DNA of 64,000 bases. It comes from Candidatus Nitrotoga sp. 1052 (GTDB lineage: Bacteria; Pseudomonadota; Gammaproteobacteria; Burkholderiales; Gallionellaceae). The position numbers and the translations under genes were made by a program. Of the stretch, positions 9,820-53,993 are shown piece by piece. How positions within the stretch are numbered: position 1 is the first letter of the stretch; every line of letters begins with the position of its first letter. Location of the stretch: positions 1 to 64,000 of the forward strand of contig NZ_CAKMHQ010000022.1 in assembly GCF_927312905.1 (NCBI RefSeq). Direction: 5' to 3'. Under the pieces are notes generated by a model, which was not told where the DNA came from, did no database searches, and saw nothing but the letters and a program-made list of their open reading frames with translations.

Positions 9820-11391
9820 CTACTGTGCTAACTCGGCAGCCTCGACCACCACTTTATATAACCGCTCTTCTTGTGCAGTGGCTATTTTAGTGCCGACTGC
9901 CACTTGATTACGCTTACCAGGAGCTACACCGCCTTTAATTATTAAAGGGGCGCTTTGTGACACAGCTCGTCCTGTTTTCGCATCATATTTCACTACACGC
10001 ACTTGAACTCGACCTACTGGAATAGAGGTGCTATTTTGCACGACAGCATATAAATTACCCGTATTATCCGCCTGCACACCTGCCTGAATATACTTCGCAG
10101 GGTTGCTTGGTAAATCTAAGTGTACGGCACGTGCTGTTGCTTCTTTGCCAATATCTGAATTAGAAGCCGAGGCAATTTGATAATGTTGCAGTGCTTCATC
10201 TGTTTGACCGCGCTCTTCAGCGATTTGGCCTAACAACGCATGACCAGGTGCAGTAGGTAGTAATTCATTGGCACGCTTAAGAAAAGGATCAGCTTCGGCT
10301 TTTTTCCCTAAATTGAATAGCGCAATGCCACTTTGAATGTGCGGTTTAAAGTAATCAGGTTGCATTTTGATGGCTTTATCATAAAACGATAAAGCCTCTT
10401 CTGGTTTGTTCTGAGTTAAAGCAATGTCACCCAATAGCTCTTGAAAACGTGCTTCACGTGGTTCGGCGGCAATGGCTTGTTTTGCTAATGTGGTGGCTTT
10501 CGCTGTATCTTTAGCCGCTAGTGCTTTTACGCCTTCGTCATAAGCTTTATAGGCTGCCTGAGTAGATTTCAATTTGCCTACTTTTTGCGCATAAACCTCT
10601 TTACCCCATTCCCCGCCAGCACCGACTGTTGCCAATGTGATTTTGTTGGCAGCCACACGCTCAGGTGATGGTGGATGGCTGGCAAATAAACCCTCAATAA
10701 AATTACTTTGACGTCCAGCACTTAACTTGACGAAAGTCTCTTGCAAGGTCACGGCAGCTGTTGGGTCGTAACCCGCTTTTTTCATATATTGCATACCATA
10801 TAGATCCGCTTCTCTTTCTGCATCGCGCCCATATTTACTCGTGGCAAGTTGTGCGCCTAGTTGAGCGCCGCCAACAATCAGGTTTGCATAATCAGTGTTT
10901 TGCGCGCCTATACCAACTGCAATCATTGCTCCTTGCATGAGTATCCCGCGCTCCATGTTTTTTGCTCCATGTCTTGCGGCGGCGTGGACCATTTCATGCC
11001 CCATGACCGCGGCAAGTTCAGCCTCGCTATTGAGTTCGTAAAGCAGTCCACGATTAAAAGCGATTTTTCCACCAGGCATCGCCCAGGCATTGGGTATGGA
11101 CTCATTTAGCACCGTGTATTCATAAGGTAGTTTACGATCAGAAGCCGCGGCAAGCTTATCGCCTACACTTTGCACATAAGCGGTGAGTTCAGGGTCGATA
11201 ATGTAATCGCCACCTTGTGATTGGCGAGCAGGACCATAATTTTGTGTACCAATTGATATTTCTTGAGATTCAGACACAATTTGAAATTCCTTTTTTTTAG
11301 TAACGGGATTCGTGCCGCATGCTGAAGTTAATAATGTGACCGTCGTTAATAAGGTAAATATTAAGTTTCTAGTGTTTATTTGATTCAACAT
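9820..11391 (-). CDS. M48-family metalloprotease lipoprotein with C-terminal TPR repeats
   Basis: 523 residues, BepA/YfgC-like. A lipoprotein-type signal ends TSAC (Cys25). The peptidase domain carries the zinc motif HEMVH at residues 132-136 and a downstream EREADLYG supplying the third ligand. About three or four TPRs follow from residue ~280 (e.g. AIAAEPREARFQELLGDIA). Relatives act in the periplasm on outer-membrane protein assembly, degrading or maturing stalled substrates. Composition is noticeably AT-richer than polA next door, with codon choices such as TTA and AAA, hinting at different ancestry. It stands alone, facing away from the co-polymerase gene. A Zn-dependent protease role is well supported; the substrate is inferred. 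Confidence 0.92.
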   Translation of the reverse strand: MLNQINTRNLIFTLLTTVTLLTSACGTNPVTKKKEFQIVSESQEISIGTQNYGPARQSQGGDYIIDPELTAYVQSVGDKLAAASDRKLPYEYTVLNESIPNAWAMPGGKIAFNRGLLYELNSEAELAAVMGHEMVHAAARHGAKNMERGILMQGAMIAVGIGAQNTDYANLIVGGAQLGAQLATSKYGRDAEREADLYGMQYMKKAGYDPTAAVTLQETFVKLSAGRQSNFIEGLFASHPPSPERVAANKITLATVGAGGEWGKEVYAQKVGKLKSTQAAYKAYDEGVKALAAKDTAKATTLAKQAIAAEPREARFQELLGDIALTQNKPEEALSFYDKAIKMQPDYFKPHIQSGIALFNLGKKAEADPFLKRANELLPTAPGHALLGQIAEERGQTDEALQHYQIASASNSDIGKEATARAVHLDLPSNPAKYIQAGVQADNTGNLYAVVQNSTSIPVGRVQVRVVKYDAKTGRAVSQSAPLIIKGGVAPGKRNQVAVGTKIATAQEERLYKVVVEAAELAQ

Positions 11392-11987: not shown

Positions 11988-14036
11988 ATGTTCTCTTCTC
12001 CCACGCAGCGCGCCAACAGACGCAAACTTCTTGTTTTTGCAGGCACATTTTTGGTTCTGGCTACCATCGGCCTGTTTTACAACTATTCGCGCCCCGCAAT
12101 CTATCTGGCCGGCGCGAGGGTTCAGATCAACCCCGGTGCGGTTCAGGTTGAAGCGGCCGTGTCCACCGGCGGCACGCAAGGCGCCAACGTGCCGCGCTCG
12201 CTCTTGAACGAGCTGCAAGTGCTGACCAGCCGCCCGCTGGTCAAGGCGGTGCTGGAAAAATTGCCCGACACACAGCGTGACACCGCTTCCCGGTTGGGAG
12301 CGGACCCGGTCTCCGCCTTGCAGGCGGGGCTGCAGGCCAGGGTGGCCGAGGGGACGGATGTGGTCGAGTTGTCATCACGCGGTCCCGATGCTGCACTTGC
12401 CGCCACGCTGGTCAATGAATTGGTCGTTGCCTACACCGGCCAGCTGAACGATGCCTATGCAAAAACCTCAGGCAGCTCGTTGATTCAGATCAGTGACGAA
12501 GTCGCCAAACTTACCCAAAAGGTTCAAACCCAGCGCCGCCAGATGGAAGACTTTCGCCTGCGCCATAACATCGTCTCCTTCGAGCGCGAAGAAAACGAAG
12601 TCTTGGGCCGCATCAAAGGCCAAACCGAAGCGCTCAACAAAGCCCAGGAAACATTGGCGATTGCCGAAGGCAAACTGCGCGCGATGACCGAATCTGCAGC
12701 CGTTGGCAGGCCCATTGCAGCGCCGGTGCGACCCAACGCCACGCTGGACAATCTGGAGCAGCGCGCATCCCAAGCCCGCGAAGAACTCAGCGAGCTGAGC
12801 CGTGGCTACACGCCTGCATACATGGCAATGGACCCACGCGCACGCGCGGTCAAGAATCGCCTGGCCGAGCTAGAGCGTCAGATTGTCAACCAGCGGCAAA
12901 GCAGTGGGCAGGTGGCGCAGTCAGACCAGAGCTCGGCGTTGGCTGACGCGCGTGACGGGGTCAACGCGGCGCGCGATACCGTTGCCCGCATGGCGCAGCA
13001 GGCCTCAGGCAACCGTGGTGCGCTGCAGCAGTTTGCCGCGCGCTTCAATGAATTTCGCACCATGCGCGACGAACTTGCGCCGCTGGAGTCGCTGCTGCGC
13101 GACGCGACCCAGCGCAAGGCGCGCCAGGAGGCGGGTGAGGCCGCGCGCAGGCCATCGGTGCGGGTGGTGGAGCCTGCTTTTGCACCGCGCGAGCCGTGGC
13201 AGCCGCAGTACACGCGCGATGCGGCCATCGTGCTGGGCGGTGCATTTTTGCTGGCGCTGCTGGCGATGTGGGTGGTTGAACTGTTCAACCGGGTTGACGC
13301 GCCGCCCACTTGGATCGTGTCTCAGCCATCACCTTACCCGGGCAATCCGAACTACGGCTTGGGATATGACTCGGGGCAGGACAATGTGGCTGCCCTAGCG
13401 CACCGAATGCCGCTTGCGGTGGAATACGACGGGCGCGCGACGATGCTGCCGCCCGTGATCCAACCGCGCGAGCTGCTGCAAGAAGAGCTGGCAGGCATCC
13501 TGACCAATGCCTCGCCCACAGTGTTGCTGTTTGCCCACCTGCTGCTCAGGGGAGTCAGTCCGGAAGAGGCGATCACGCTGCGCGGCAGTGATGTCAATAC
13601 GGCCGCGCGGACACTGCACGTCGCAAGCAGCCATGAAGGCGACGATTCGCGAACTGCAGCGCGCGACATTCCGCTGGACGGCACCTTGCATGAGGTGATC
13701 GTCAACACTTTCAAAACCACCCCGGCAGGCGACGCCCAACCGTTGCTCGGCGATGCGAATGCTAAACCGGTTGCGCTCAATGACCTGACGACAGAACTGC
13801 TTTACGCGGCCCATGACGCGGGCGTCGACCAGCCCGCTGAAGTCACGCCTGACGCGCTGCGCCACACCTATGCCGCCTTTCTGGCCCGCCAGGGCATTCG
13901 CATGGCAGACCTCGCCCGCGCGGTCGGGCAAATGAGCGCAGCGCAGGCGGCCATCTACAGCGCCATGGCACCCGCCGGAAAACGGCTGGGGCTGGAGCAG
14001 GTGGAGCGCTTAATGTCGGTGGCGCGACAGGCCTAG
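11988..14036 (+). CDS. Wzz/GumC-type polysaccharide co-polymerase fused to a degenerate tyrosine-recombinase-like domain
   Basis: 682 residues from the ATG at 11988, chosen because AGAAAGG lies 8 nt upstream; a frame extending back to 11817 lacks such support. The first transmembrane segment is about 14-33, followed by a periplasmic region with coiled coil (170-380). A proline-rich stretch (APREPWQP, 399-406) leads to the second transmembrane segment at 411-431. This is the architecture of chain-length-determining co-polymerases in the inner membrane. The cytoplasmic end (about 490-682) resembles the catalytic domain of tyrosine recombinases: LLRGVSPEEAITLR like box I and TPDALRHTYAAFL like box II. 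Of the catalytic set, box I Arg is Ser524, the hairpin Lys is absent, His of HxxR is Asp622 and the later His is Gln648. Only Arg625 and Tyr657 remain. It is thus unlikely to recombine DNA. No other polysaccharide gene is adjacent. Confidence 0.8.
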   Translation: MFSSPTQRANRRKLLVFAGTFLVLATIGLFYNYSRPAIYLAGARVQINPGAVQVEAAVSTGGTQGANVPRSLLNELQVLTSRPLVKAVLEKLPDTQRDTASRLGADPVSALQAGLQARVAEGTDVVELSSRGPDAALAATLVNELVVAYTGQLNDAYAKTSGSSLIQISDEVAKLTQKVQTQRRQMEDFRLRHNIVSFEREENEVLGRIKGQTEALNKAQETLAIAEGKLRAMTESAAVGRPIAAPVRPNATLDNLEQRASQAREELSELSRGYTPAYMAMDPRARAVKNRLAELERQIVNQRQSSGQVAQSDQSSALADARDGVNAARDTVARMAQQASGNRGALQQFAARFNEFRTMRDELAPLESLLRDATQRKARQEAGEAARRPSVRVVEPAFAPREPWQPQYTRDAAIVLGGAFLLALLAMWVVELFNRVDAPPTWIVSQPSPYPGNPNYGLGYDSGQDNVAALAHRMPLAVEYDGRATMLPPVIQPRELLQEELAGILTNASPTVLLFAHLLLRGVSPEEAITLRGSDVNTAARTLHVASSHEGDDSRTAARDIPLDGTLHEVIVNTFKTTPAGDAQPLLGDANAKPVALNDLTTELLYAAHDAGVDQPAEVTPDALRHTYAAFLARQGIRMADLARAVGQMSAAQAAIYSAMAPAGKRLGLEQVERLMSVARQA

Positions 14037-14681: not shown

Positions 14682-15173
14682 TTAGTTAACACAAGACACG
14701 TGGCTTAAACCGTTTTCGTCACCGTAGTTAACGATGCCGCCCTCCAGGTTAACGATAAACTGGAGGCCAAAAACAGTGCCGGGCGTGGATGACCAAACGT
14801 CGTACAGTGTCCAACCCTGGGCACGTAGTGCTGAAACATTAGTGCGGTAAATGTTCTCATGACGAATACCTAGCGTACTTCCATCATATCGAGTGAGTGC
14901 GACCAGCTCGTCTTTGGTTGGCAGACGCCATTTGTATCCCAGAGCCGTGGATGATGAGCAGATATTCTTAGCCTCAGCCAAGGTAACAGCGGTTGCTGTA
15001 ATGGGTGCCCAAGTGAGTTTGCCATGGACGATGTAACCAGGAGGTAATTTTACCGGTGCGGCGCTTGGCACCGCAGCCTTTTCCAGCGGATCCGCCGACG
15101 CTATATTCAAAGTTAACAACAAGACGGTCAAAGTTATGAGTAGTTTTTTCATGTGGGAGAGTAGTTTTTTCAT
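14682..15173 (-). CDS. Secreted DUF1566 (Lcl-like) protein
   Basis: About 163 residues. A signal peptide (MKKLL...TLNIASA) is followed by a DUF1566-type domain with its usual WRLPTKDELVAL motif and a C-terminal W-S-S-T segment. DUF1566 occurs in surface or secreted proteins, including collagen-like Lcl of Legionella, but its role is undefined. The start is ambiguous: ATG codons at 15173 and 15152 each begin MKKLL, because 21 nt at the 5' end are tandemly duplicated. Neither has a good ribosome binding site. The longer open frame to 15335 lacks signal-peptide character and is not used. Confidence 0.7.
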   Translation of the reverse strand: MKKLLSHMKKLLITLTVLLLTLNIASADPLEKAAVPSAAPVKLPPGYIVHGKLTWAPITATAVTLAEAKNICSSSTALGYKWRLPTKDELVALTRYDGSTLGIRHENIYRTNVSALRAQGWTLYDVWSSTPGTVFGLQFIVNLEGGIVNYGDENGLSHVSCVN

Positions 15174-15364
15174 GTGGTAATAGTACGCTTCATGCACCCT
15201 TAGAACAAGTATGTATGCATCAAAAAGTGGGGTTACCCATGCACCTTGACGGTGTTTGGTGTTGCGCCAGGTGTCAGAATCGGCGGCCCTAAAATCAGGG
15301 TAAATCATTTTACCTGCCTGACAGTCAGGTGCCATTACCTGTACCGGAATTGAAAAATGGAAAC

Positions 15365-15395: not shown

Positions 15396-16160
15396 TCAGC
15401 TTCGAGCTACCCGAAAACTACCACCGATGCGTAGCATTTGTGCACGATCAAGGTTCTTCGCTAATGCCACTTGGCGGTTATTGCATTCTTGAACTGGCAG
15501 GCGGCCTTGATACTTTTCCATAAACCTGGCACTAAATACTGCGTACTTCTCACAATAATTTCCGCGCGACTGGTGGGCTATTAAAATATCGTTGCATACC
15601 GCCAATTTGAATCCGGCCAAATAGGCTGCGAAGGTAAAGTCGATGTCATAGATATGGAAGCCATCGAAATTTTGTTCATCGAAACGTATTTCATTGACCA
15701 CCCGCCGATTCACGGCAAAGAAAAATCCGTCCAAAGCTTGAATTCCTTCAACGACCACCGAATTTATCTCGCCCCACACCGACAAGTCGAAGCGATTGCC
15801 GGGCCATTCATCACCGGTAACCGGGTAGGCAACAGTGCCGTGCAAGTAGGGGTCTCCCGCAAATCCCCAGTTGCTGGCGACTAAATGACTTGTGCCGGCG
15901 CAGCCGACCACATCGTAGACTTGCAGATATTGGCGCAAACGAGGATAAAAATCGGGCGAGATTATCTCGATGTCATCATGGCAAAAAATCAGGATGTCGC
16001 CCCGGCTTTGGGTGATGCCGCGGTTATAGCCTTCGCACAGTGACTGCGCGTCGTGGATGCCGATGATCTCAAACGGCGCGTCCCCCAGCAGCTCCTTGTA
16101 GTTTTTCGAGACGAACTCGAATTTTTCCGGATTGATGCTGCAAATGATAATCGAAATCAT
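15396..16160 (-). CDS. GT2-like glycosyltransferase
   Basis: About 254 residues with a GT-A fold. MISIIICSINP is the nucleotide-sugar-binding first strand and FCHDDIEI holds the metal-binding DDxE-type motif. A later LDGFFFAV segment resembles acceptor-side motifs. The family transfers sugar from a nucleotide donor; donor and acceptor are unknown. I prefer the ATG at 16160, since the GTG at 16205 overlaps the upstream stop and adds a polar tail before the first strand. It follows the 717-aa GT41 gene by 34 nt and closes the cluster, so it may extend or prime the glycan those enzymes attach. Confidence 0.85.
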   Translation of the reverse strand: MISIIICSINPEKFEFVSKNYKELLGDAPFEIIGIHDAQSLCEGYNRGITQSRGDILIFCHDDIEIISPDFYPRLRQYLQVYDVVGCAGTSHLVASNWGFAGDPYLHGTVAYPVTGDEWPGNRFDLSVWGEINSVVVEGIQALDGFFFAVNRRVVNEIRFDEQNFDGFHIYDIDFTFAAYLAGFKLAVCNDILIAHQSRGNYCEKYAVFSARFMEKYQGRLPVQECNNRQVALAKNLDRAQMLRIGGSFRVARS

Positions 16161-16194
16161 GTTAGCTGGCTCCGTTTCAATCGAGATGTGGCTA

Positions 16195-18348
16195 CTAGTC
16201 GCCACATTGCACGTTGAATTCAGAATGATAAAACGATTCTATTTGACGTAATGACGTATCCATCTCGAAGATTCTATTGCTGCCGGTAATGATGCGCTGA
16301 ACAACTTGCTGGCGCCATGCATTGTCTGTGCCGATCTTGATGGCTATCTCGATATAGTCATCCTGGTCTTTGGCTATCAGTTCATCCAGCCCCATGCATT
16401 TCAGCATTCCGTAGCTTTGCCGACCGCGCATGAATTCTCCCGGCAAAGTTACCACTGGCAAGCCGCAAGCAAGCGCATCCAGAGTTGTGTTGCCGCCTGA
16501 CCAATGCAGGGTATCGAGCATCACATCACTCAGCATATTGACGCGTAGGTAATCATCGTGCGCCATTGACGGCAGAATAATGCCCCGCCCTTGCGGCTCC
16601 AGGCCGCACGCGCGCAGGGTCTGCGCCAGCCGGGCAAAAAAGGCGTTGGTGATGTTGGGGTGGCGGCCGGCAAACAGCACGATGACTCCATCCGGGTCGC
16701 GCTCAAGAATGTTAGCCAGCAGTGCATCGTTGTCCGGATGGATCTTGAATAATGATTGCGGGCACAGATACAGCGTCTTATCTCCCGGTAACGCAAAGTC
16801 GGCGCGACGCGCTGGCGTGGGTAGCACAGGCTTGCTGTAATAAGTGCCTAGGCCCTCGAGCAATATCAATTTTTCTGAATAATGGAGCTCGGCGTTATCG
16901 GGCTCCATTGCGGCGCTTGAAAAATAATAGTCGATATTTGCGTGGCCGCTGGTCACAGGGTGTCCCCAGCCAGCACATTGCACCGGCGCCAGTCGCATGG
17001 CAGCCAGCAGGAAACTGCTGTTATCCATGCCGAGCTCCGGGTAAACCAGTACATCCAGGTCATCCGTCAGCACAGATGCGGCGATACTGCCCGGCGATAC
17101 AGGGCCCGCGACAAGGTGGCGAAAGTGGTCGCAAGCGTCGACAATTTCCTGGGTAACAGAATCTGTTTCCTGGCGGGTATGGTAGACAAAAATTTCAAAT
17201 TGCTCGCGATCGAGCTGCATGATCCAGCTGCGGAAATACATACCAACCGTGCAATTTCTGAAAAAACTGGACAGATAACCGATGCGCAAGCGGCGCCCCG
17301 CTGCGTCTTTTTTCGCGCGCAGCTGCATGAATTGCGGCGCGATTTTCTCCAGCATGGCAGCAACAAAATGCGCATAGTCTATTTGCAGCTGCTTGTCGTC
17401 AAGACCTTGGTAGGCCAAGTAAAAATTGCTCCAGCGCAGTTCATCCAATAGTTGCTCGGGCTGGTTGTGAGAAATAAAGTCTGGAATATTTGCGTGCAGG
17501 ATTTTCAGGCCATCAGCGAATCGCTGTCGTGCTTCCAGCAAATCATTCTGATTGCGGTATACGGCAGGCAATGACAGCAAGGCACCGAGTGCTGATTTCA
17601 GTTCATGCGGATTCAGCGTTTGCGCTTGCCGATAGGCCGCAAGTGTGTGTTCGATGCGGCCTTGCTCCCAGAACACGCGGGCAAGTTTGTTGAGTTCCGC
17701 GCCATTCTTGCCCGGCTTCATTTGCGCGGCATGGGTGAAGCTGGCTTCCGCTTCATCGAGCTTGCCCAGTTGGTGCTGAACAGAACCGAGATAGTTGTAA
17801 GCCTGGACGTGATCCGGCTTCAAGCGAAGCGCATGGTTGAAGCTGGTTTCCGCCGAATTGAGTTGTCCTAAATCCAGGTGAGTGATGCCCAGGTTGTAAT
17901 GGGCCAGCGCGTAATCCGGTTTCAGCAGAACAGCCTGCGCAAACTGCTGCTGAGCGCCAGCGAAATCACCCAGCGCACGAAGCGAGGTGCCCAGGTTGTT
18001 ATAAGCTCCGGGATAATCCGGCTTGTGATGGATTGCATCGCGGAAATTTGCAGCGGCTTGCGCGAAGCGTTTTTGGTCATGCAGAATAATGCCGATATTG
18101 TTGTAGGCCTCGGCATAGTCTGGCTTCACGCGAATTGCATTTTGCAGGCTAGCGACGGCCTCATCTGGCCGGTGCAGATCTTCCAGCGTGAGTCCGCGCA
18201 GAAAATGATTGCGCGACTCTTGCGGGCTGAGAGCGATGGCTTGATCAAGATACGCCAACGCCCGCTGTAAATTTCCGCTTTGCCTGGCCAGTGCGGCTGC
18301 CTGCTGCGGCGCCTCGGCCTGATTAAGTAAATCGGGGCTATCAGTCAT
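16195..18348 (-). CDS. TPR-GT41 protein, O-GlcNAc-transferase/SPINDLY-like (Cys at the catalytic-His position)
   Basis: 717 residues. At least five TPRs span about 20-250, with Asn-ladder signatures such as AYNNIGIIL and AYNNLGTSL. A linker and a GT41 catalytic region cover about 350-700. Recognisable GT41 blocks are CAGWGHPVTSGHA (458-470), YLCPQSLFKIHPDN (527-540, Lys535 matching the UDP-contacting Lys of human OGT), and DTLHWSGGNTTLDAL then GLPVVTLPG. In RIGYLSSFFRNCTVG the position usually occupied by the conserved His is Cys366. The predicted role is cytoplasmic O-linked sugar transfer onto protein Ser/Thr. Second last in the minus-strand cluster; 15 nt after the double-module gene. Confidence 0.88.
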   Translation of the reverse strand: MTDSPDLLNQAEAPQQAAALARQSGNLQRALAYLDQAIALSPQESRNHFLRGLTLEDLHRPDEAVASLQNAIRVKPDYAEAYNNIGIILHDQKRFAQAAANFRDAIHHKPDYPGAYNNLGTSLRALGDFAGAQQQFAQAVLLKPDYALAHYNLGITHLDLGQLNSAETSFNHALRLKPDHVQAYNYLGSVQHQLGKLDEAEASFTHAAQMKPGKNGAELNKLARVFWEQGRIEHTLAAYRQAQTLNPHELKSALGALLSLPAVYRNQNDLLEARQRFADGLKILHANIPDFISHNQPEQLLDELRWSNFYLAYQGLDDKQLQIDYAHFVAAMLEKIAPQFMQLRAKKDAAGRRLRIGYLSSFFRNCTVGMYFRSWIMQLDREQFEIFVYHTRQETDSVTQEIVDACDHFRHLVAGPVSPGSIAASVLTDDLDVLVYPELGMDNSSFLLAAMRLAPVQCAGWGHPVTSGHANIDYYFSSAAMEPDNAELHYSEKLILLEGLGTYYSKPVLPTPARRADFALPGDKTLYLCPQSLFKIHPDNDALLANILERDPDGVIVLFAGRHPNITNAFFARLAQTLRACGLEPQGRGIILPSMAHDDYLRVNMLSDVMLDTLHWSGGNTTLDALACGLPVVTLPGEFMRGRQSYGMLKCMGLDELIAKDQDDYIEIAIKIGTDNAWRQQVVQRIITGSNRIFEMDTSLRQIESFYHSEFNVQCGD

Positions 18349-18363
18349 GGCTACAGGGGATAC

Positions 18364-21300
18364 TCATCGCGATGTTACGATGCCTTTCTGCAGCAACGCT
18401 TGTCGATAGGCTTCTTCCAGATGACGCACATGATCATCCATGTTGACTAGCGGCGAGTCGGCCAAACCGCGCCGGATAGCATCCGTAACACTGGCGTAGA
18501 ACGTTTGATCGTTAGCGAGGCGTTTGACGATGTCGATATATTCCTGTTCGTTGCAGGCAATCGTTGCCGTTACTCCAAGATTCGTCAGAATGCTGAAGCC
18601 GGTGCGTTCGCCGTGCCGTTCCCCGCGCAGCGTGACCACCGGCACGCCCATATCGAGCGCTTCCAGCGTACCATTGACTCCGCCAAACGGCAGTGTATCC
18701 AGCACCATGTCAACCATGGTATAGCGCGCCTGGTTGTGGGCTTCATCCTTGCCGGCCGGGATGAAAACGACGCGGGTTGCCGCTATGCCAGCGGCCTTGA
18801 GTCGTTGCAGGTAGCCAGCTTTAGCTTCAATGTTGTGCGGCGAGAACGCGAGTACCGCGCTCGGCAGTGCTTCCAGCACCCGGCGCCACAATGCGAGACA
18901 GCGCGGACTCAGCTTAATCAAAGTGACAAAAGCCCCCAGCACTATAGCGTTCTTTTTTATGCCGAGTTTTGTGCGCTGATAGTTGTGCTGGCTGGCTGGC
19001 GCGATGTGGCGATAAGGAAATACACAGCCCTGCATCGGCAACAGGCGCTCCAGCAGATACGCCTGATTTTCTGTAGTGTCGGCGTATTGATCGGTTAGCT
19101 TGAAATCGATGCTATCCAGCCCCACCGCCCCGGCGCTGGCAATGTGGGTGATCTGCAGGCGCGCTGGTTTGTACGCCAGAATCGCTGGCAGGCTGCCCTT
19201 GGTGTGGGTGGACAGATCCACCAGAATATCCAGGTTGTCCTCGGTAATGCGATTGGCCGCACTGAGCGCGTCGAGATTTGCGATGCCGACAAATCGATGG
19301 CTGCAGGCACGGAAGCGCTCGGTCCACGCATCTTCCTGCGATGACAGCGAATAGCAGTACACCTCGAATTGCCCGGTATCATGGCGAGAAATGGCCTGAT
19401 ATATCATTTTTCCCATCACGTGATCGCGCAAATCAGCGGACAAATAGCCCAGCCGGATCATGCCGCCAGCGCGGGTGGGCAGCGACAATTGGGGGGAGTT
19501 CGTCTGCTTGCTCAATTGGTTGTAGCGCTGGTACAGGGCAAACAGACGCTCTGGAGGAAAGTCAAAAAACAATAGCAGATACAGTATTTCCTCCAGCCGG
19601 TCGAGTGCATCGGCGTCATTGAGGAACGCATATTTATCGCTTAGCAAGTCGTCCAGATACGCTTGTTGCTGTTCGACTTCACCCAGATACTGGCAAGCTT
19701 GCAGGCCATACACCGCGAGCATGACGGAGGGCGGCGCGTGGCGCCGGAACTGTTTAAAATTTTCCAGCCACGGATTGATTTTGCCGGCATCGAACAACAC
19801 ATCGCCCAGATGGTAATAGGCCGGCGCATGATCCGGTTGAATACCCAGGATCTTTTGGTAGCAGGCAGCAGCGCGTTCGGCCTTGCCTTGCTGCTGGAAC
19901 AGTACGCCCAGGTTGAATAAGGCCTCGGTGTTGCTTGGCTCCAGCGCCAGGGCACGATGATAGGTGGCCATTGCCGCGTCTGGCATACCTTGCTTTTGAT
20001 ATACCACGCCAAGATTGAAATACGCGGACGGTTCCTGCGGCTGACTTTGGATTGCCTGCTGCAAGGTGGTGACGGCTTGCGGCAGATGGCCAGCCCCGGT
20101 CAGGGCGCGGCCTAGCCCGTTCAGCGCTGCAAAATGACTAGGCTTGATTTGCAGCGCCTTGTTAAAACCGGCGACCGAATCCGCCATCTGTCCCTGCTTC
20201 AAATAAAGGTTGCCAAGTGCCAGGTGCGCATCAAGATAGCTCGGGCTAATCGCAATTGCACGTTGAAGTTGCACGACGGCATCATCTTCCTGACCGGTTT
20301 GTTCCAGTAGTACGCCATATAAATAGAGGGCGGCGGCATGGTCGGGCTCATGCAATAGTACCTGCCGGTAATGGTCTGCGGCTTCCATCAAGTTGTTGGC
20401 CTGGTGTTGCCGCACTGCTTTCTGGAACAGCGCTTTATTATCGTCGTTTACGACTGAATCTTTTAGGGGGCATTGGGCGATAGCATGGCGATAAGCATCT
20501 TCCAGATGCCGGGTATAAGCTTCCATGTCAACCAGCGGCGAATCAACAAGACCACGCCGGATCTGTTCCACCACCATGCTGCGCCAGCCAGCATCGCTCG
20601 CCAGACGGCAAGCGAGATCGATATATTCGGCTTCGTTGTGGGCAATTGTTTCAGGCACGCCGAGGTTCATCAGAATACTGTAGGAGGTGCGCTCACTATG
20701 GCGCTGGCCGCACAATGTGATCACCGGCACCCCCATATCCAGCGCTGCCAGAGTCGTATCACCACCGCTGTAGGGGAAAGTGTCGAGCGCTATATCGAGC
20801 AGTGCATAACGTGCGCGGTTAAACTGCTCGTCCTTTGCCGCAGGGATGAACTTCACTCGCACCGGATCAATTCCGGCCGCTGCAATTTGACGTAAATAGC
20901 TGGCTTTTTCGTTTTCTTTCAGCGGTGAAAATGCCAGCACGGCATGTTCGACTCTCGTCATGATGGCAGCCCAGGTTTGCAGACTACGCGGGCTGAATTT
21001 CATTATGTTAGCGAAAACGCCTAATACCACTGCATTTTCGGCAATGCCTAACTCGGCCCGGCTTAAATGGATATCCGAAGCAGGTTCAACATGGTGAAAG
21101 GGGAATAGACAGCCTTCCATCGGTAACAGCTTTTCGATCAAATATGCCGCATTTTCCGGCACGTCGGCATAATGATCGGTCAGCTTGTAGTCAACCGTAT
21201 CCAGGCCTATGCCACCGTGAGAGCCAAGATGGGTGATCAGCACCCGTGCCGGTTTGTAGGCGAGGATCAATGCATTGGAATAGGAAGTGTGGTTGCACAG

Positions 21301-22326
21301 GTCGATCAATATGTCGAGGTCGTCTTCGGCGATCATCTTGGCGGCTTGCCGCGCGGACAGCGTGTGCAGATCAACGAATTTATCACTGATCGTGACAAAC
21401 TGCTTGGTGAGTGCATCTTCCTGGCTCGCCAGGGAATACAGATGCAATTCAAACTGGCTGCGATCATGGCGCGCCAGCACTTCGACCATAAGTTTGCCCA
21501 TCACATGTACGCGAAAATCCGCCGACAAATAGCCAATGCGCAATTTTGTGCGCTGCGTCCGGTAGGGAGAAACCAGCGGGAATTCGGAGAAATGTTGGCG
21601 TTTAACTGCCTCATTGTAGGCATGATACAGACGCAGTAGCTGCGCTTGCGGCAGATCGAAGTACTGCGCCACACTTAAAATATTATCCAGCACCCCGATG
21701 TCGCCATCTTTGAGTGGATGTGCCGACAAGGCTTGCAGGTAGTTTTGTTCGCGGGTGAAATCGCCCAGGTAGCGACAAGCGGAAAGTCCGGCAACAAAAA
21801 ACCAGTCAGTTTTTTTATCCAGGCGCTCATATTTCTTGAATGCATCCAGCCATTCCTCGGTGCGGTCGAGAAATTTCAGCAGCGAACAGAGATTGTCATA
21901 AGCTTCCTCATAGTCCGGCGCAATTTTTAGCGCCGCCTGGAAGTGCTCCACCGCCAAACTGAACCGTTTCTGTTTTTTAAGTATCAGGCCTAAATTGAAT
22001 TGCGCCTGTGGCAGTCTGGAATTGCTTGCCAAGGCACGGCTGTAGGATTGCCGAGCATCCTCCAGACGCTCCAGGTTTTGATAGATATTGCCCAGATTGT
22101 TGTGTGCTTCGGCAAAGCCGGGATTGATTTCGATGGCGCGCTGGTAGCTGGCAATTGCCGCATCGGTTTGATTCAGGTATTGCAGCGCCAGTGCCAAATT
22201 GTAGTGACATTGTGGGTGCCTGGGCTGCAGCGCCAGAACTTGCCGGTAGGCCATCATGGCGTCCACTAGCCGTCCTGCTTGATGATACTGCACTGCCTGT
22301 TGAAACAATTGGTCGGGATTATTCAT
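18364..22326 (-). CDS. Tandem double-module TPR-GT41-TPR-GT41 glycosyltransferase
   Basis: 1320 residues containing two full modules. Module 1: TPRs about 5-150, GT41 about 260-615. Module 2: TPRs about 630-850, GT41 about 955-1310. The modules are clearly paralogous: GLDTVDYKLTDHYAD against GLDSIDFKLTDQYAD, and SGGDTTLAALDMGVPVITL against GGVNGTLEALDMGVPVVTL. Both keep the His of the first GT41 block (His274 in FRVHVMG, His969 in LRDHVMG) and a Lys in IMKFSPRSL (Lys443) and LIKLSPRCL. Each is also preceded by a 'YLGxxxxQxxYL' helix segment. Most GT41 proteins have one catalytic domain, so the enzyme may act at two sites or dimerise in cis. The frame is continuous across the junction at residues 615-635. 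Confidence 0.88.
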   Translation of the reverse strand: MNNPDQLFQQAVQYHQAGRLVDAMMAYRQVLALQPRHPQCHYNLALALQYLNQTDAAIASYQRAIEINPGFAEAHNNLGNIYQNLERLEDARQSYSRALASNSRLPQAQFNLGLILKKQKRFSLAVEHFQAALKIAPDYEEAYDNLCSLLKFLDRTEEWLDAFKKYERLDKKTDWFFVAGLSACRYLGDFTREQNYLQALSAHPLKDGDIGVLDNILSVAQYFDLPQAQLLRLYHAYNEAVKRQHFSEFPLVSPYRTQRTKLRIGYLSADFRVHVMGKLMVEVLARHDRSQFELHLYSLASQEDALTKQFVTISDKFVDLHTLSARQAAKMIAEDDLDILIDLCNHTSYSNALILAYKPARVLITHLGSHGGIGLDTVDYKLTDHYADVPENAAYLIEKLLPMEGCLFPFHHVEPASDIHLSRAELGIAENAVVLGVFANIMKFSPRSLQTWAAIMTRVEHAVLAFSPLKENEKASYLRQIAAAGIDPVRVKFIPAAKDEQFNRARYALLDIALDTFPYSGGDTTLAALDMGVPVITLCGQRHSERTSYSILMNLGVPETIAHNEAEYIDLACRLASDAGWRSMVVEQIRRGLVDSPLVDMEAYTRHLEDAYRHAIAQCPLKDSVVNDDNKALFQKAVRQHQANNLMEAADHYRQVLLHEPDHAAALYLYGVLLEQTGQEDDAVVQLQRAIAISPSYLDAHLALGNLYLKQGQMADSVAGFNKALQIKPSHFAALNGLGRALTGAGHLPQAVTTLQQAIQSQPQEPSAYFNLGVVYQKQGMPDAAMATYHRALALEPSNTEALFNLGVLFQQQGKAERAAACYQKILGIQPDHAPAYYHLGDVLFDAGKINPWLENFKQFRRHAPPSVMLAVYGLQACQYLGEVEQQQAYLDDLLSDKYAFLNDADALDRLEEILYLLLFFDFPPERLFALYQRYNQLSKQTNSPQLSLPTRAGGMIRLGYLSADLRDHVMGKMIYQAISRHDTGQFEVYCYSLSSQEDAWTERFRACSHRFVGIANLDALSAANRITEDNLDILVDLSTHTKGSLPAILAYKPARLQITHIASAGAVGLDSIDFKLTDQYADTTENQAYLLERLLPMQGCVFPYRHIAPASQHNYQRTKLGIKKNAIVLGAFVTLIKLSPRCLALWRRVLEALPSAVLAFSPHNIEAKAGYLQRLKAAGIAATRVVFIPAGKDEAHNQARYTMVDMVLDTLPFGGVNGTLEALDMGVPVVTLRGERHGERTGFSILTNLGVTATIACNEQEYIDIVKRLANDQTFYASVTDAIRRGLADSPLVNMDDHVRHLEEAYRQALLQKGIVTSR

Positions 22327-22332
22327 GGTTGA

Positions 22333-24513
22333 TTAATTACAATTGTTATCAGAAGGTGGGCTTAATGGTCGAGCATTTAATGCCACGGCAAAAAACTGCT
22401 CCATCTGACGCAATGGCGCCTCCACCGCAAAGATGACGTCGCTCCTTGTGGTTATTTGTTGCACAACTTGCTGATGCCAAGCCCGGTCTGCACCGAGTCT
22501 GGTTGCTATCTCTATATAATCTTTGTGATCGTGTGCGATCAGCTCATTCAAGCCCATACACTTCAACATGCCGTAGCTTTGCCGCCCGCGCATAAATTGC
22601 CCTGGCATCGTTACCACGGGTAAACCGCAGGCTAGCGCATCCAGAGTTGTATTGCCGCCGGACCAATGCAGGGTATCGAGCATTACGTCGCACAGCATAT
22701 TGACCCGCAAATAATTTTCATGGCCCATGCGCGGCAAGATTTTAATTTGACCGCTTTTCTCCATCCCGCTTTCATCCAATGCACTTTCAAGCCGCTTCAT
22801 AAAAGCACGGGTAATTGAAATGTCTGTGGCTTGAAAAAAGACCAGCACAGCTTTTTTATTCCATGCCAAAATTTCCAGCATCAGCCTATCGTTATCGGGA
22901 TGAATTTTATATAACGATTGCGGGCAAAGATAAAGAATACGATTTTCTGGCAATGAAAAGTCTGAGCGCTCGGCTGGAGAAGGAAGTGCCGGTTTTAAAT
23001 AGCACGTTCCGATTCCCTCCAGCAATATTAATTGTTCACTATAGTGAGCCTGCGCGTTTTCTGGCTCCATTAATGCACTGGAAAAGTAATAATCCATATT
23101 GGCATGTCCGGTGGTTACCGGATGTCCCCAGGCAGCACATTGCATTGGTGCCAAGCGCATGGCCGCTAATACAAATGCCCCCGGGTCCATTCCAATTTCC
23201 GGATAAATCAAGATATCCAGCTGGTCTTTCTTGACCTGTCTGCCAATATAATCAACGTCGCCAACAAGATGTTTATAGCTGTCAGAAGCATCGGTAAATT
23301 CTTCAGTTACTTGATCCTGCATATGCCCAATGTAATAGCAATAAATTTCGAACATCCCCCGGTCAAGAGAAGTAACCCAGCTTTTAAAATAAGACCCTAC
23401 GGTGCAATCGCGCATAAAACTCGACAAGAAGCCAATGCGCAAACGTCGTTGGCTGGCTGCAGGATCCTGCTTTATGGGCTGCATTAAATCTGGCGTTGCA
23501 ACCTGAAGAATATCCGCCACAAAATGTGCATATTCCACTTGCAAAGATTTGTCATCTTGACCTTGATAAGCCAGATAAAAATTTGTCCAGCTCAATCCCG
23601 ACAATAATTCTTTTGATTCTATTTCAAGGAAGTTTTCGGTGTTATCTCGTAAAGTCTTCAGACCCTCAGTGTAACGTTTGCGTACTGCGGACAATTCTGC
23701 GGCATTGGAATAAATCGCGGGCAACATCAGATGAGCGCCGATGAATGCCTTCAAGCCATTTGGCTTTAATGACAAGGCATGCTGATAAACGGATGCCGCT
23801 TCGATATTTTTGCTCTGTTCTTTTAAAGAATAAGCCAAGTTGTTTAGCACTTGAATATTATCTGGATCGAGAAAGAGCGCTCGGCGTAACACTTTCTCGG
23901 CCTCTTCCATCTTCAACTGCACAAGAAGGGCATGGCCCAAGCCAAAATGGGCATAAATATTATCCGGCTGAAGTTCAATGGATTTGCGGTAACAGCTCTC
24001 AGCCTCTTCCATTCTTGCTTGTGCTTGATATGCGCTGCCCAAATTGTTGTAAGCGAGTATGTAATCTGGTTTTAACCTTACTGCTTCGAGAAAGGCAACC
24101 GTTGCCTCGTCAATTTTTCCCTGTAAATTAAGTACGCTTCCCAAGTTATTCCAAGCCTGGGGAAAGTCGGGAAGAAATTTTAACGCTAGGCTAAAATTAG
24201 CTGCAGCTTCATCAAGACTCCCCTTTATTTGATATAGCGTGCCCAACTGATTATATGCTCGTGCAAAATTTGGATTCAGTTCAAGTGCTTTACAAAAATA
24301 TCCTGCTGCTTCGTCAAACTTCCCTTGCGCCTGCGAGACCAAACCCAAAGCAAGCCAATAATGTGGCTGCTTTGAGTCAGCCTGTATTGCCTTGTTAAAA
24401 TAACATGCTGCTTGTTCGAAATTTTTCGAACTAAAAGTCTTCAATCCCAACTGATAAAGAACCTCTGGGTGAATAGAGGCGCCGATAGGAATTGGCTGAT
24501 TTTCATTTTGCAT
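22333..24513 (-). CDS. TPR-GT41 protein, O-GlcNAc-transferase/SPINDLY-like (paralogue)
   Basis: 726 residues. About seven TPRs in residues 15-250 and a GT41 region about 355-720. It is closely related to the 717-aa protein: both have GHPVT.GHAN.DYYFSSA, CPQSL.KIHPDN, LDTLHWSGGNTTLDALA and FMRGRQSYGMLKCMGL. It shares the same replacement at the conserved His (Cys370 in MRDCTVG). First gene of the cluster in transcription order and only 6 nt before the double-module gene, so almost certainly one operon. It is slightly more AT-rich than its neighbours. The predicted role is O-glycosylation of a protein not encoded nearby. Confidence 0.88.
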   Translation of the reverse strand: MQNENQPIPIGASIHPEVLYQLGLKTFSSKNFEQAACYFNKAIQADSKQPHYWLALGLVSQAQGKFDEAAGYFCKALELNPNFARAYNQLGTLYQIKGSLDEAAANFSLALKFLPDFPQAWNNLGSVLNLQGKIDEATVAFLEAVRLKPDYILAYNNLGSAYQAQARMEEAESCYRKSIELQPDNIYAHFGLGHALLVQLKMEEAEKVLRRALFLDPDNIQVLNNLAYSLKEQSKNIEAASVYQHALSLKPNGLKAFIGAHLMLPAIYSNAAELSAVRKRYTEGLKTLRDNTENFLEIESKELLSGLSWTNFYLAYQGQDDKSLQVEYAHFVADILQVATPDLMQPIKQDPAASQRRLRIGFLSSFMRDCTVGSYFKSWVTSLDRGMFEIYCYYIGHMQDQVTEEFTDASDSYKHLVGDVDYIGRQVKKDQLDILIYPEIGMDPGAFVLAAMRLAPMQCAAWGHPVTTGHANMDYYFSSALMEPENAQAHYSEQLILLEGIGTCYLKPALPSPAERSDFSLPENRILYLCPQSLYKIHPDNDRLMLEILAWNKKAVLVFFQATDISITRAFMKRLESALDESGMEKSGQIKILPRMGHENYLRVNMLCDVMLDTLHWSGGNTTLDALACGLPVVTMPGQFMRGRQSYGMLKCMGLNELIAHDHKDYIEIATRLGADRAWHQQVVQQITTRSDVIFAVEAPLRQMEQFFAVALNARPLSPPSDNNCN

Positions 24514-32847: not shown

Positions 32848-34305
32848 TTACAAGGTCCTCAGATATTCTATTAGTGCATGCTTGTCCTCTTCCGGCAGCC
32901 CGGTGCCGAAATCGTGGCCCATGTTGCCGTTGCCACGCAGGGTGGTGTCGTATTTCGTACCCGCCCTTTCTGCTTCTGGGCCTTGCGAAATGAAGCCCAT
33001 CTTGGCGGGATCATAAACATCATAGCCACGCCAAAATGCCTGCGGTCGCTGGCTGGGTGGTTTTAACAGATCCCTGAGTGAGGGGATGGAGCCGTTGTGA
33101 AGATAAGGCGCGCGCAGCCAGATGCCATCGAGGAACTGGGCGACGTAACCGATCAACGGTTCTTCCACCAGGCCTTTGCGTTCAAGCCCCATGTCTCTGA
33201 CAACTTTATTTGCTTCGATGGCAGCCTGTTGGTTCCAGGTGTCCATGCGTCCGCGGTCGGTGCCAATTTCTGCAAGGGGAATGCGCGTTCCGGTGCGGGC
33301 GGAAGCATGGCATTGCATGCAGTTTGCATCAAACACCGGCTTGCCCTTAGCGGCCAGGGCTTGGTCTATGGTGAAGGGATATTTCGGTGCGGGCGTGTTG
33401 CCGAGATAGTCGAGCAACCAGTCGATCTGTTTCAAAAAATCATTTTTGTCATGCGGTGCCGCACCCAGCAAGCCCAGAGCGGAATCCATGACGACCGAAC
33501 GCGGGTCATGGGAATCACCAGCAAAGTTCATGCGATGGCCCAACTCAGGTTTGTATTTTTTCAGATTCCATACCGAAGGCATGTCGGTGGGCCCAAACGT
33601 GTCATCCATTTTCCAGCGGATCATGAAATACTTGGTCAGGTTCATCGCATCATCGCGCCCTCTTCCCCATTCAGGAAAGTCATGACGATAGATCCACTGG
33701 AATTGCCCTTCGCGCTCCAGCAGCCTTTTTTTAGTGATAGGGATAATGAGGAAGCGGTAAGCCATGCGGTCGATCCAGTCGAGCTTGGCGGCGCCGTTAA
33801 TCTCGGACATCAAATTGTCGGCATTAAAACGCGGGTCTTTCGCACAGTCGACCAGGAAGCGGAAGAAGGCTTCCAGATCAAGCGTGTGGTTGGGGCCAGT
33901 GGCGATGAGAACAGGATTCTCGTTATGCGCTTTGCGGTAACTTGCCACATGACAGGCGGCGCAGTTGTTGGCCACGCGATCAAAACCGATACGGCGTTTG
34001 GTGAAGCCGATGGGTAGCTCTTTTCCCTGCTCCCAGTTCACGCCAAAGGCGGCAAGGCCACCCGGCTTCGGCAATTTTTCCGGAAACATGCGCGGCAGCA
34101 CATAGAAAATCCAGTAGGGAATGCCGGCATCGAATTCAGCGCCGATGGAGCCGTATTTGAAGCGTTCCTCCGCGCTGGAGAACGACGGTTGGCCGTAATC
34201 GCGGAAGAAACGATCCCAGCCGACATAGCCAAGAACCGCGACCATGATGAGGGCAACAATGCCGAGTGGGATCAGCCAGCGAGAGCATTTGCAGAGTTTG
34301 GCCAT
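32848..34305 (-). CDS. Di-heme cytochrome c, RoxA-like family (1)
   Basis: 485 residues with an N-terminal membrane anchor (about 11-30). Heme c motifs CAACH at 115-119 and CMQCH at 329-333. The C-terminal part contains WLRAPYLHNGSIPSL and ends GHDFGTGLPEEDKHALIEYL, which recur in the neighbouring cytochromes and are typical of the di-heme family that includes the rubber oxygenase RoxA and di-heme peroxidase relatives. Exported, heme added in the periplasm. Whether it is an oxygenase, peroxidase or electron carrier cannot be decided. A strong AAGGAGA ribosome site lies before the ATG at 34305. Confidence 0.85.
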   Translation of the reverse strand: MAKLCKCSRWLIPLGIVALIMVAVLGYVGWDRFFRDYGQPSFSSAEERFKYGSIGAEFDAGIPYWIFYVLPRMFPEKLPKPGGLAAFGVNWEQGKELPIGFTKRRIGFDRVANNCAACHVASYRKAHNENPVLIATGPNHTLDLEAFFRFLVDCAKDPRFNADNLMSEINGAAKLDWIDRMAYRFLIIPITKKRLLEREGQFQWIYRHDFPEWGRGRDDAMNLTKYFMIRWKMDDTFGPTDMPSVWNLKKYKPELGHRMNFAGDSHDPRSVVMDSALGLLGAAPHDKNDFLKQIDWLLDYLGNTPAPKYPFTIDQALAAKGKPVFDANCMQCHASARTGTRIPLAEIGTDRGRMDTWNQQAAIEANKVVRDMGLERKGLVEEPLIGYVAQFLDGIWLRAPYLHNGSIPSLRDLLKPPSQRPQAFWRGYDVYDPAKMGFISQGPEAERAGTKYDTTLRGNGNMGHDFGTGLPEEDKHALIEYLRTL

Positions 34306-34364
34306 GATATTTCTCCTTCCTTATTGATCTTTTTGTTCATGCACATTCCTTCCCTTACCATCAG

Positions 34365-34417
34365 TCCCTCTCCCTGTGGGTGAGGGAAGCAAAGCCCTTC
34401 TCTCTGTGGGAGAAGGG
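34365..34417. repeat. Two adjacent hairpins of a dispersed CCCTCTCCC-type repeat
   Basis: TCCCTC/GAGGGA hairpin (34365-34387, with inner CCC/GGG) and CCCTTCTC/GAGAAGGG (34395-34417), both with a TGTGG-like loop. Similar tags are widespread in intergenic DNA of proteobacteria. Located in the 175-nt gap between two paralogous cytochrome genes, so it might also act as a processing or attenuation site. Confidence 0.5.
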
Positions 34418-34480
34418 TGGGGATGAGGGAAATGACCTTGAATGGAAATTCTGCCATGTGTTTTGGAGTACTCAATTAAG

Positions 34481-35968
34481 TCAGAATGTTTTAAGGTATT
34501 CGATCAGCGCCCATTTATCGGCATCAAGCAATTCAGTTCCGTAAGCCTTGCCTGTATGACCCGCCTTGCTGTTGCCGGGCTTTTCTGTGTCGTAGGCAAA
34601 GTAGGATTTATCGCCATCCTTCGCCACGTCCGAGACGAATCCCAATTTCACCGGATCATAGAGATCGTTGCCGCGATAAAAAAGGGTTGGACGTTGGGTT
34701 GCCGGTTGCAGCAGGTCCCACAACGTCGGCACGGAGCCATTGTGTAAATACGGCGCGCGCAGCCACAGACCGTCCAGTGGGGAGTTGGCATAACCCCAGG
34801 TTTTGCGGAAGTGTGTGAACTTATAGTCCGTTCCGGCGTACGGCGTGCCCAGGTTTTCGGCGAGCGCAGGGGTAAAGGAATTCAGCCGGTTGGGGTCGGT
34901 GCCGATCTCATTCAGGGGCGTGACTTTGCCGACATATTCCCCGGAGAAATCGCTGCCGCTTGCGCCGTGGCAGGCAGCGCAATATTCCTTGTAAATCGCT
35001 GCGCCGTGCTGTGCTTTGACCTGATCGATGGGGAAGCTTTTACCAAATGCAGGCGGTGTGGCGCTGGCATTCCATGTCTGGATACGCGTCATGGCGGCGT
35101 GGTCCAGGCTGGGCGGCGTGGCACCCGTGCCGAAGGCGGCGTTGAGATTGCGTTCTTCTACGTGATTGTTGTTGCCATCCCAATGTAACTGCATGCTGGT
35201 TTTCTTGCCCTGATTCCAAATAGTTGGAAAGTCGGCAGTGCCCAGCAGCTCCTCGTGCGGCAATTGTTCGATGGGAAAATTGAACAGGGCCTTGGCGGAA
35301 TTGAATGTATCGACCCGGCCCGGCCCCCAATCCGGCTGTGCGTCAATGAAGCGCATGCGATGCATGAGGGAGGTGACGCGGTCGCGCATCAACGCGATGG
35401 CAACAGGGTAAACCACGTAGCGATCCAGCAGAGAAAGCTCAGCGCCCTGTTCTTTGCTGGCTTGGGCTCGAATGACTGGCACCAGATATTCGGCACTGAA
35501 TTTCACGTCGCGCATACAGTTATTGATGAATTTCTCGAAGGCCATCAGATTAAAAGTGTTGGCGCCCATGCCAACCACCAGCTGGGGCTTGGCATCAGCT
35601 TTCGCACGTACGGTGGAGGTGTGGCACACTGCGCAGTTGAGAAAAGTGCGGTCGATGCCCAAATGCCTGCGTTGACTCATGCCGACCGGAAGATCGTGGC
35701 CAGACTCAAAAATCATGCCCAGTGACGCATAACCCTTGCCGGGAAGATATTGGCCGCAGATTTCTGGCAACGCCAGGAATACCCGCTTGGGAAAGCCCAT
35801 CACGCGGTCGCCGCCCGTAGAACCGTATTTAAAATGCTCGACCGGATCGGCATACACTACGGGTTCATCGCTGCAAAAACGCAACCCGGCGATCAGCAGC
35901 ACAAATGCGATCAGGATAATGCCTGACCACAACAAGATACGACAGACTATGCAGGAGGAGATTTTCAT
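34481..35968 (-). CDS. Di-heme cytochrome c, RoxA-like family (2)
   Basis: 495 residues, paralogue of the 485-aa protein with the same layout. Membrane anchor about 10-30. Heme motifs CAVCH (112-116) and CAACH (330-334). Shared blocks include LDGLWLRAPYLHNGSVPTL and a GTELLDADKWALIEYL end. The middle has a segment rich in His and Asn (LHWDGNNNHVEERN) not present in its paralogue. Cys150 and other free Cys occur. The ribosome site AAGGAAG precedes the ATG. Tandem arrangement suggests gene duplication within the cluster. Confidence 0.85.
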   Translation of the reverse strand: MKISSCIVCRILLWSGIILIAFVLLIAGLRFCSDEPVVYADPVEHFKYGSTGGDRVMGFPKRVFLALPEICGQYLPGKGYASLGMIFESGHDLPVGMSQRRHLGIDRTFLNCAVCHTSTVRAKADAKPQLVVGMGANTFNLMAFEKFINNCMRDVKFSAEYLVPVIRAQASKEQGAELSLLDRYVVYPVAIALMRDRVTSLMHRMRFIDAQPDWGPGRVDTFNSAKALFNFPIEQLPHEELLGTADFPTIWNQGKKTSMQLHWDGNNNHVEERNLNAAFGTGATPPSLDHAAMTRIQTWNASATPPAFGKSFPIDQVKAQHGAAIYKEYCAACHGASGSDFSGEYVGKVTPLNEIGTDPNRLNSFTPALAENLGTPYAGTDYKFTHFRKTWGYANSPLDGLWLRAPYLHNGSVPTLWDLLQPATQRPTLFYRGNDLYDPVKLGFVSDVAKDGDKSYFAYDTEKPGNSKAGHTGKAYGTELLDADKWALIEYLKTF

Positions 35969-37974: not shown

Positions 37975-37997
37975 GTAAGACTTTCCGCATACACCAG

Positions 37998-48526: not shown

Positions 48527-50917
<2,391 letters not shown>

Positions 50918-50922
50918 TCAGT

Positions 50923-50938
50923 TGTTTCACGTGAAACA
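50923..50938. promoter_or_regulatory. parS: parS centromere site (ParB-binding)
   Basis: TGTTTCACGTGAAACA, a perfect 16-bp palindrome identical to the canonical chromosomal parS sequence. It is in the gyrB-dnaN intergenic region about 3 kb from dnaA, where parS sites typically cluster. ParB binds here to organise origin segregation and to load SMC. parA/parB themselves are not in the window. Confidence 0.93.
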
Positions 50939-51132
50939 TTAAGAATGCATTCGTAAATATTACTTACTTCGAATGACATTTGAGGCAATTAAATACATCA
51001 AAAATGTGTACGAAAATCAATTTTTACTCACCATCGTTTTCAGTATATATACGGTTTCTTAAATATTGGCCGAGAGATATTAAGTTTGTGTTTTTTGATT
51101 TTCATAAACATTATTTAATAATTTATTCATTA

Positions 51133-53795: not shown

Positions 53796-53854
53796 AATTT
53801 TCGGATGACAATGCAAAAAAATCTTCGAACATTCTACTACATGCAAGGCAAAAA

Positions 53855-53863
53855 TTATTCACA
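53855..53863 (+). promoter_or_regulatory. DnaA box upstream of dnaA
   Basis: TTATTCACA fits the TTWTNCACA consensus. Located 60 nt upstream of the dnaA start, so it may serve autoregulation or belong to oriC. Confidence 0.6.
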
Positions 53864-53897
53864 GTAGATAAGTGATTGAAGGAACATTTTAAATTCG

Positions 53898-53959: not shown

Positions 53960-53993
53960 TATATCTGTTCGTTACATAATAGATAAAATAAGC

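Follow-up and report, generated by a model that had tools for sequence, protein, structure and literature searches.

A gene of Candidatus Nitrotoga sp. 1052, located in the window analysed here (the whole stretch of 64,000 nucleotides), codes for a polysaccharide co-polymerase of the Wzz/GumC type whose cytoplasmic end is a relative of the tyrosine recombinases with a broken active site. This is the protein that the original prediction, made from the DNA letters, had described, and profile matches (TIGR03007 and PF00589) together with an active site that is broken in 28/28 family members uphold it. We put at about one half the probability that it is an accessory co-polymerase in which the exapted recombinase domain serves as a phosphorylation-independent cytoplasmic scaffold, either ring-forming or partner-docking. 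Architecture, broken site, selection, acidic charge and co-occurrence with other genes come from sequence comparison, while control of the oligomer, docking of the tail and the XrtA substrate are what we infer.

The fusion protein would be an accessory component of the inner membrane, whose periplasmic region would act on repeat-unit polymerisation, as in other Wzz/GumC proteins, the substrate being most likely the exopolysaccharide of the XrtA (exosortase/PEP-CTERM) system, whose genes lie at other places in these genomes. The cytoplasmic domain would descend from a tyrosine recombinase that was joined once in an ancestor and lost its catalysis and its basic charge, and its fold and the tail that follows the Tyr may have been kept as a ring-forming or partner-docking module. 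This module would steady or gate the co-polymerase oligomer without phosphorylation, in place of the Wzc kinase or of the pseudokinase recruited by EpsV/HfsA. The ring is proposed because in recombinases such as Cre the helix after the Tyr packs into the neighbouring subunit, cyclically. A more tentative idea is that this could be a third way of running a co-polymerase, in which a recombinase domain captured once, with catalysis and DNA affinity lost, is now a cytoplasmic ring-forming regulator of exopolysaccharide assembly, the inherited cyclic packing of tail to neighbour replacing the kinase ring.

The literature searches made here (open-licence PMC papers) found no description of such a protein. 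If the reading is true, it represents a conserved case of a DNA-recombinase fold shifted from DNA work into cell-envelope machinery, and it extends phosphorylation-independent control of co-polymerases beyond pseudokinases. Carriers of the fusion include a genus of nitrite oxidisers and genomes that encode ammonia/methane monooxygenase, and the aggregation of such nitrifiers matters in wastewater treatment.

Gene and domain architecture

The fusion gene is single-copy in its genome and, as originally claimed, forms a continuous frame of 682 codons from the ATG at 11988 to the stop at 14034-14036. An in-frame TTG lies upstream of this ATG at 11817, but the MF start given by the ATG is common to the orthologues of the genus. 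The features are listed below; residue counts refer to the 28 members whose residues were examined (7 of the genus, 14 from profile searches of the order, class and phylum, and 7 more of family f16); of the 47 matches found in the family of the distant relative G051, 12 were read.

11988..14036, + strand: co-polymerase/pseudo-recombinase fusion gene, 682 aa, one open frame
12021..12089, + strand: predicted first membrane helix, residues ~12-34 (hydropathy reaches 1.94 over residues 14-32)
12090..13211, + strand: presumed periplasmic co-polymerase region, about residues 35-408 (TIGR03007 match 11-432)
13212..13280, + strand: predicted second membrane helix, residues ~409-431 (hydropathy reaches 2.53 over residues 412-430)
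13281..13457, + strand: linker presumed to be cytoplasmic, residues ~432-490 (lacks a core-binding domain; dN/dS 0.220 for 433-490)
13458..14033, + strand: residues 491-682, homologous to the catalytic domain of recombinases but with the active site broken (PF00589, fold search, dN/dS 0.173)
13557..13559, + strand: Ser524, position of the first catalytic Arg (Arg in 0/28 members)
13566..13568, + strand: Glu527, position of the catalytic Asp/Glu, kept (Glu 26/28, Asp 2/28)
13851..13853, + strand: Asp622, position of the first catalytic His (His in 0/28)
13860..13862, + strand: Arg625, position of the second catalytic Arg (Arg 25/28, His 3/28)
13929..13931, + strand: Gln648, position of the second catalytic His/Trp (His 2/28, Trp 0/28)
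13956..13958, + strand: Tyr657, position of the nucleophile (Tyr 24/28)
13959..14033, + strand: tail after Tyr657, with a near-invariant Pro662 (Pro 27/28)

The co-polymerase half

TIGR03007, the chain-length determinant of the XrtA system, matches residues 11-432 with 75.3 bits (E 2.9e-21), far from the equivalog cut-off of 278.85. Because this score is well below the family cut-off, the N-terminal half is a relative of TIGR03007 and not a member. The Pfam family Wzz gives 13.3 bits with the window protein, below its cut-off of 25.5; with E values of up to 0.1 allowed, it matches 7/12 family members, the best of them at 0.00053. To this homology is added a predicted helix near each end of the predicted periplasmic region, as in Wzz/GumC proteins, the periplasmic location of residues ~35-408 being deduced from these two helices. 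A BY-kinase domain is absent, since the whole protein, searched against Pfam at E up to 1, gives only PF00589 and the weak Wzz match, and a BY-pseudokinase domain is not found in the protein either, the C-terminal domain matching recombinases by sequence.

Homology of the cytoplasmic domain to tyrosine recombinases

PF00589 (Phage_integrase) matches residues 518-660 with 29.1 bits against a cut-off of 27.1, and 11/12 family members at E up to 0.1; with a score over the cut-off, such proteins may be labelled as integrases by automatic annotation. When run against PDB sequences, a profile of 10 family members recovers an integrase (3nkh, E 4.1e-10), an archaeal XerC-like protein (4a8e, 4.9e-10), XerA (5hxy, E 6.8e-8) and others, which makes the C-terminal domain, by sequence, a relative of the tyrosine recombinases. 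The pseudo-recombinase profile also matches chain 14 of PDB 9i5v (401 residues, named ribosome-associated translation inhibitor RaiA; E 0.007), which is either another reuse of the recombinase fold or a chance match; a literature search turned up nothing to explain it.

A fold search had been proposed together with the original prediction as a check on this resemblance, and it does find recombinases with the better of two structure models. The first model, made from five near-identical genus sequences, was poor (pLDDT 47.6), and its top 14 Foldseek matches were all tyrosine recombinases, none of them significant (best E 0.26). The second (pLDDT 69.2, pTM 0.67) was made from an alignment that included five true recombinases, which makes its fold match circular in part; kinship is claimed on the strength of the sequence evidence. 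Its best Foldseek match is XerA (E 7.0e-5, query TM-score 0.50, rmsd 7.2), and the 13 chains at E up to 0.001 are all recombinases or integrases (query TM about 0.5, rmsd 7-10); VIA-align pairs it with the P2 integrase over 142 aligned residues (rmsd 3.5) at Z 10.4, a value that the tool itself notes as modest for a mainly helical domain. A core-binding domain was not found, the ~60 residues between the second helix and the domain giving no Pfam match at E up to 1.

The window's genome contains a recombinase match with three internal stop codons (G000:C85:26911-27507), that is, a decayed integrase. A phage origin of the domain was considered and rejected, as no relative was confirmed among the 65 pattern matches that the domain profile produced in a scan of viral contigs.

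Distribution and origin of the fusion

The two-part protein is found in 63 genomes of the window's class (which we take to be Gammaproteobacteria in GTDB's sense), and in 62 of these the match extends over both halves, which for members that were not read individually is judged by the span of the profile match. The prevalence is a lower bound, because strict E-values were used and at most two or three candidates were scored per genome in large samples. With the two parts in one frame in so many genomes, as recovered by the fused-protein profiles, the possibility of a one-off fusion that had been raised at the outset is discarded. A search of 61 genomes with the single protein recovered the 7 of the genus and, in G051, a distant relative of full length (30% identity over residues 11-672); in 4 other genomes a single part matches. 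Profiles of the fused protein recovered it in 10/399 genomes of the order and in 7/19 genomes of Candidatus Nitrotoga, in the class sample in 8/369 genomes, 6 of them fused (G000 and G051 were already known; G554 and G597, which match the co-polymerase part only, were dropped as members), in the phylum sample in 3/398, one of them new, and in 47/120 genomes of the family of G051. The only matches that cover less than the full span are those of G1246, which stops within the first half, and G134, both at contig edges. PF02461 (ammonia/methane monooxygenase) is present in 5 of the 15 fusion genomes tested, namely G674 and four of the five f16 genomes, and because of the latter f16 is probably Nitrosomonadaceae.

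The trees of the two halves are each compatible with one fusion event. In the tree of the C-terminal domain (28 fused proteins and 26 control recombinases) and in that of the N-terminal half (28 fused proteins and 9 other co-polymerases), the fused proteins lie on one side of a branch with an SH-aLRT of 99, although both were built by a quick method with few outgroups, and the program warned of long branches meeting. Within the family the two topologies coincide for the genus, for g20 and for most of f16, and at least one of them places G102, G482, G518, G739 and G1091 poorly.

Genomic context and link to the XrtA system

The fusion gene stands as an orphan. In the window it lies between an M48 peptidase gene (9820-11391, - strand, ~600 bp away) and, on the other side, a gene with an Lcl_C domain (14682-15335, - strand, ~650 bp away), beyond which, at 15396-24513 (- strand), the window has a glycosyltransferase gene together with three TPR/glycosyltransferase-41 genes. 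No regular neighbour was found among the 14 loci compared and 5 more, and a conserved operon was rejected, as no cluster is regularly beside the gene. Clusters joining distant loci are limited to C3 (L039, L041, L044) and C12, an ABC ATPase (L019, L021); the 5 further loci share a few weak gene pairs, none of them a regular neighbour, and synteny is shared by two of the four g30 loci (L040, L041) and is partial among the g20 loci and within the genus. A Pfam scan of 20 flanking genes from 10 other loci returned mostly housekeeping or unrelated functions (glutamate synthase, ThiG, DNA ligase, PEP carboxylase and others), with four genes lacking any Pfam match and a flippase-like polysaccharide gene adjoining the fusion in G334 only. 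The orphan position and the XrtA link had not been foreseen in the original prediction.

Most PEP-CTERM genes are described as forming operons of their own, with sigma-54 sites (PMC1569441). A sigma-54 promoter for the fusion gene was rejected after a scan of the 500 bp upstream (354 bp for G007) of 18 fusion genes, in which the start of G008 was off by one base: the best site, in G414, fits 10/13 positions and is equalled in 16/200 shuffles, and the other genes are matched by more shuffles. Promoter- and terminator-like sites were no more frequent than in shuffles.

Several other features of these regions were recorded. The three adjacent large TPR proteins of the window (16195-24513, - strand; 717, 1320 and 726 aa) have OGT-like glycosyltransferase-41 domains, and relatives of these genes adjoin the fusion gene in G008 and G015. 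Two tandem proteins of 485 and 495 aa with RoxA-like cytochrome-c domains are encoded at 32848-35968 (- strand), and near them two large proteins (35989-38016 and 38855-41398) give no Pfam match at E up to 1e-10. At 48527-57751, gyrB, dnaN and dnaA (- strand) lie beside yidC and mnmE (+ strand), the usual surroundings of a replication origin. In G051, transposase-like frames in two overlapping pieces (L008, 198-1258) lie directly upstream of the fusion gene, according to our own reading of the frames.

The fusion co-occurs with the XrtA system encoded elsewhere in the genome. A canonical TIGR03007 gene, over cut-off, is present in 20/21 fusion genomes (the sole one lacking it being the draft G134) against 5/12 genomes without fusion in a set of 33, and exosortases in 21/21 against 10/19, the genomes without fusion having been chosen by the authors in both comparisons. 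XrtA exosortase frames are typically over 490 aa, and frames longer than 490 aa are present in 20/21 fusion genomes (not in G674) against 6/19 (p 3e-5, kinship ignored). In an even sample of the order, a canonical TIGR03007 gene is present in 9/10 fusion genomes against 99/389 others (p 4.7e-5, kinship ignored; the draws of 399 genomes for fusion and for TIGR03007 were taken as identical). The window's genome carries the exosortase ~9 kb from the canonical gene, on a different contig (C29). With 108/399 order genomes containing it, the canonical gene is widespread, and because only 9/108 of those genomes carry the fusion, the latter is an optional extra to the canonical XrtA chain-length gene. 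The XrtA substrate is a guess, because the gene has no conserved neighbour and only one of 20 flanking genes is flippase-like.

What the cytoplasmic domain may do

The positions conserved in at least 26/28 members (L519, L520, G522, E527, L531, R559, D610, T627, L632, Q635, G636, L642, G647 and P662) are mostly skeleton. That these best conserved residues are spread over the fold while most of the domain varies agrees with another reading, in which the domain, instead of being a ring module, docks a partner from the cytoplasm (glycosyltransferase, kinase or small ligand) and this partner signals to the co-polymerase. The orphan position of the gene would allow such a partner to act in trans, although no candidate stands out among the flanking genes scanned, and we regard this reading as possible, with odds well short of even.

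A membrane-anchored nucleic-acid binder, which would link the polysaccharide machinery with transcription or the chromosome, has some precedent: MrpR, a recombinase fold without catalysis (PMC10516654), YopR and, going by PDB entry titles, SroF show that this fold can serve as a repressor (PDB rows 8bpz, 9rgl, 9rd5). Net charge argues against it. Per 100 residues, the family domains average -4.1 (range -6.9 to 1.4, n=28), whereas 26 true recombinase domains from five of the fusion genomes average +2.9 (range -1.7 to 7.3), a difference with p 7e-10 when related sequences are treated as independent. In that count the controls were limited to the Pfam match, whereas the family domains extended to the C-terminus; cutting the latter back to residues 503-660 leaves their mean at -4.1, with 27/28 negative (p 5e-10, kinship ignored). 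Net charge, summed over the whole domain, is negative in 26/28 family members and positive in 25/26 controls, the slightly basic exceptions of the family being G141 and G1232 (whole domain) and G739 (trimmed). The controls are 26 of 55 recombinase rows, two of which are fusion genes; four loci (L079, L083, L085, L096) and the rows without a locus were left out. Because the domain is acidic where real recombinases are basic, binding of DNA or other nucleic acid by it seems unlikely, and the missing N-terminal core-binding domain (Pfam) and the loss of the first Arg and the first His in every member examined point the same way.

An intact catalytic set is found in none of the 28 members. The first Arg is replaced by Thr, Ser, Ala or Gly, the second His persists in two proteins (G014 and G141), and the acidic residue is the sole catalytic position kept in all of them. 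The window protein lacks a Lys in the hairpin region 541-560; outside the genus, the hairpin on which the catalytic Lys sits is shortened, and the tally covers the other six positions. The residues originally assigned (Ser524, Asp622, Arg625, Gln648, Tyr657 and no Lys) are as stated; besides Arg625 and Tyr657, said to be the only ones kept, the acidic Glu527 is also present. Among the 28, the losses of the first Arg and of the first His are universal, and the second His is kept in the two cases above. A correction is that Arg625 and Tyr657 are not kept throughout the family. The preservation of Asp/Glu, and of Arg and Tyr in most members, would agree with a domain that keeps a chemistry of its own, or with a Tyr phosphorylated by another kinase as in Wzc tails. 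This is quite doubtful, as Arg and Tyr are lost together in three members of one genus (G090, G134 and G173, with His replacing the Arg) and Tyr also in G482, in domains that otherwise align throughout; because of these losses (3 and 4 of 28 members), Arg625 and Tyr657 are probably structural remnants and not retained chemistry.

A neutral passenger of an accidental fusion, which the lost catalysis and the failure to find the gene in 12/19 genus genomes could suggest, is highly improbable given that both halves are kept in distant families, that the only shorter matches lie at contig edges, and that 7 genus orthologues show no stop codon and low dN/dS values (0.146 for residues 1-432, 0.220 for 433-490 and 0.173 for 491-682), according to which the pseudo-recombinase domain is under purifying selection.

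Comparison with known systems

An accessory co-polymerase with an exapted cytoplasmic scaffold would resemble several known systems, each in part. Like the fusion protein, co-polymerases of the PCP-2a (Wzc) type combine in a single chain two membrane helices, a region in the periplasm and a cytoplasmic domain at the C-terminus, although their cytoplasmic domain is a bacterial tyrosine kinase and that of the fusion protein belongs to the recombinase family; Wzc octamers are reported to come apart on phosphorylation of the tail (PMC8285477). The EpsV/EcpK and HfsA/HfsB pairs come closer in logic, since there too a dead enzyme domain is proposed to serve a co-polymerase without phosphorylation: the corresponding paper (PMC12004946) proposes the pseudokinases EcpK and HfsB as scaffolds for kinase-less co-polymerases and mentions fused pseudokinase forms, so that the domain is a pseudokinase, separate or fused, where here it is a recombinase domain. 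The TIGR03007 determinant is the closest curated family of the N-terminal half and is present in nearly all fusion genomes, but it has ~500 aa and no extra domain, whereas the fusion protein forms its own branch, far below the cut-off.

For the C-terminal domain, MrpR/YopR of phage SPbeta (and, by its PDB title, SroF of phi3T) share the recombinase fold, and MrpR has likewise lost catalytic Arg and His residues; it is, however, a DNA-binding repressor that keeps the core-binding domain, and the accessible part of its description mentions no role in polysaccharides. XerA, XerC, XerD and the P2 integrase share the sequence family and the predicted fold of the domain but are DNA recombinases with intact active sites, and the Xer-type controls from the host genomes are basic.
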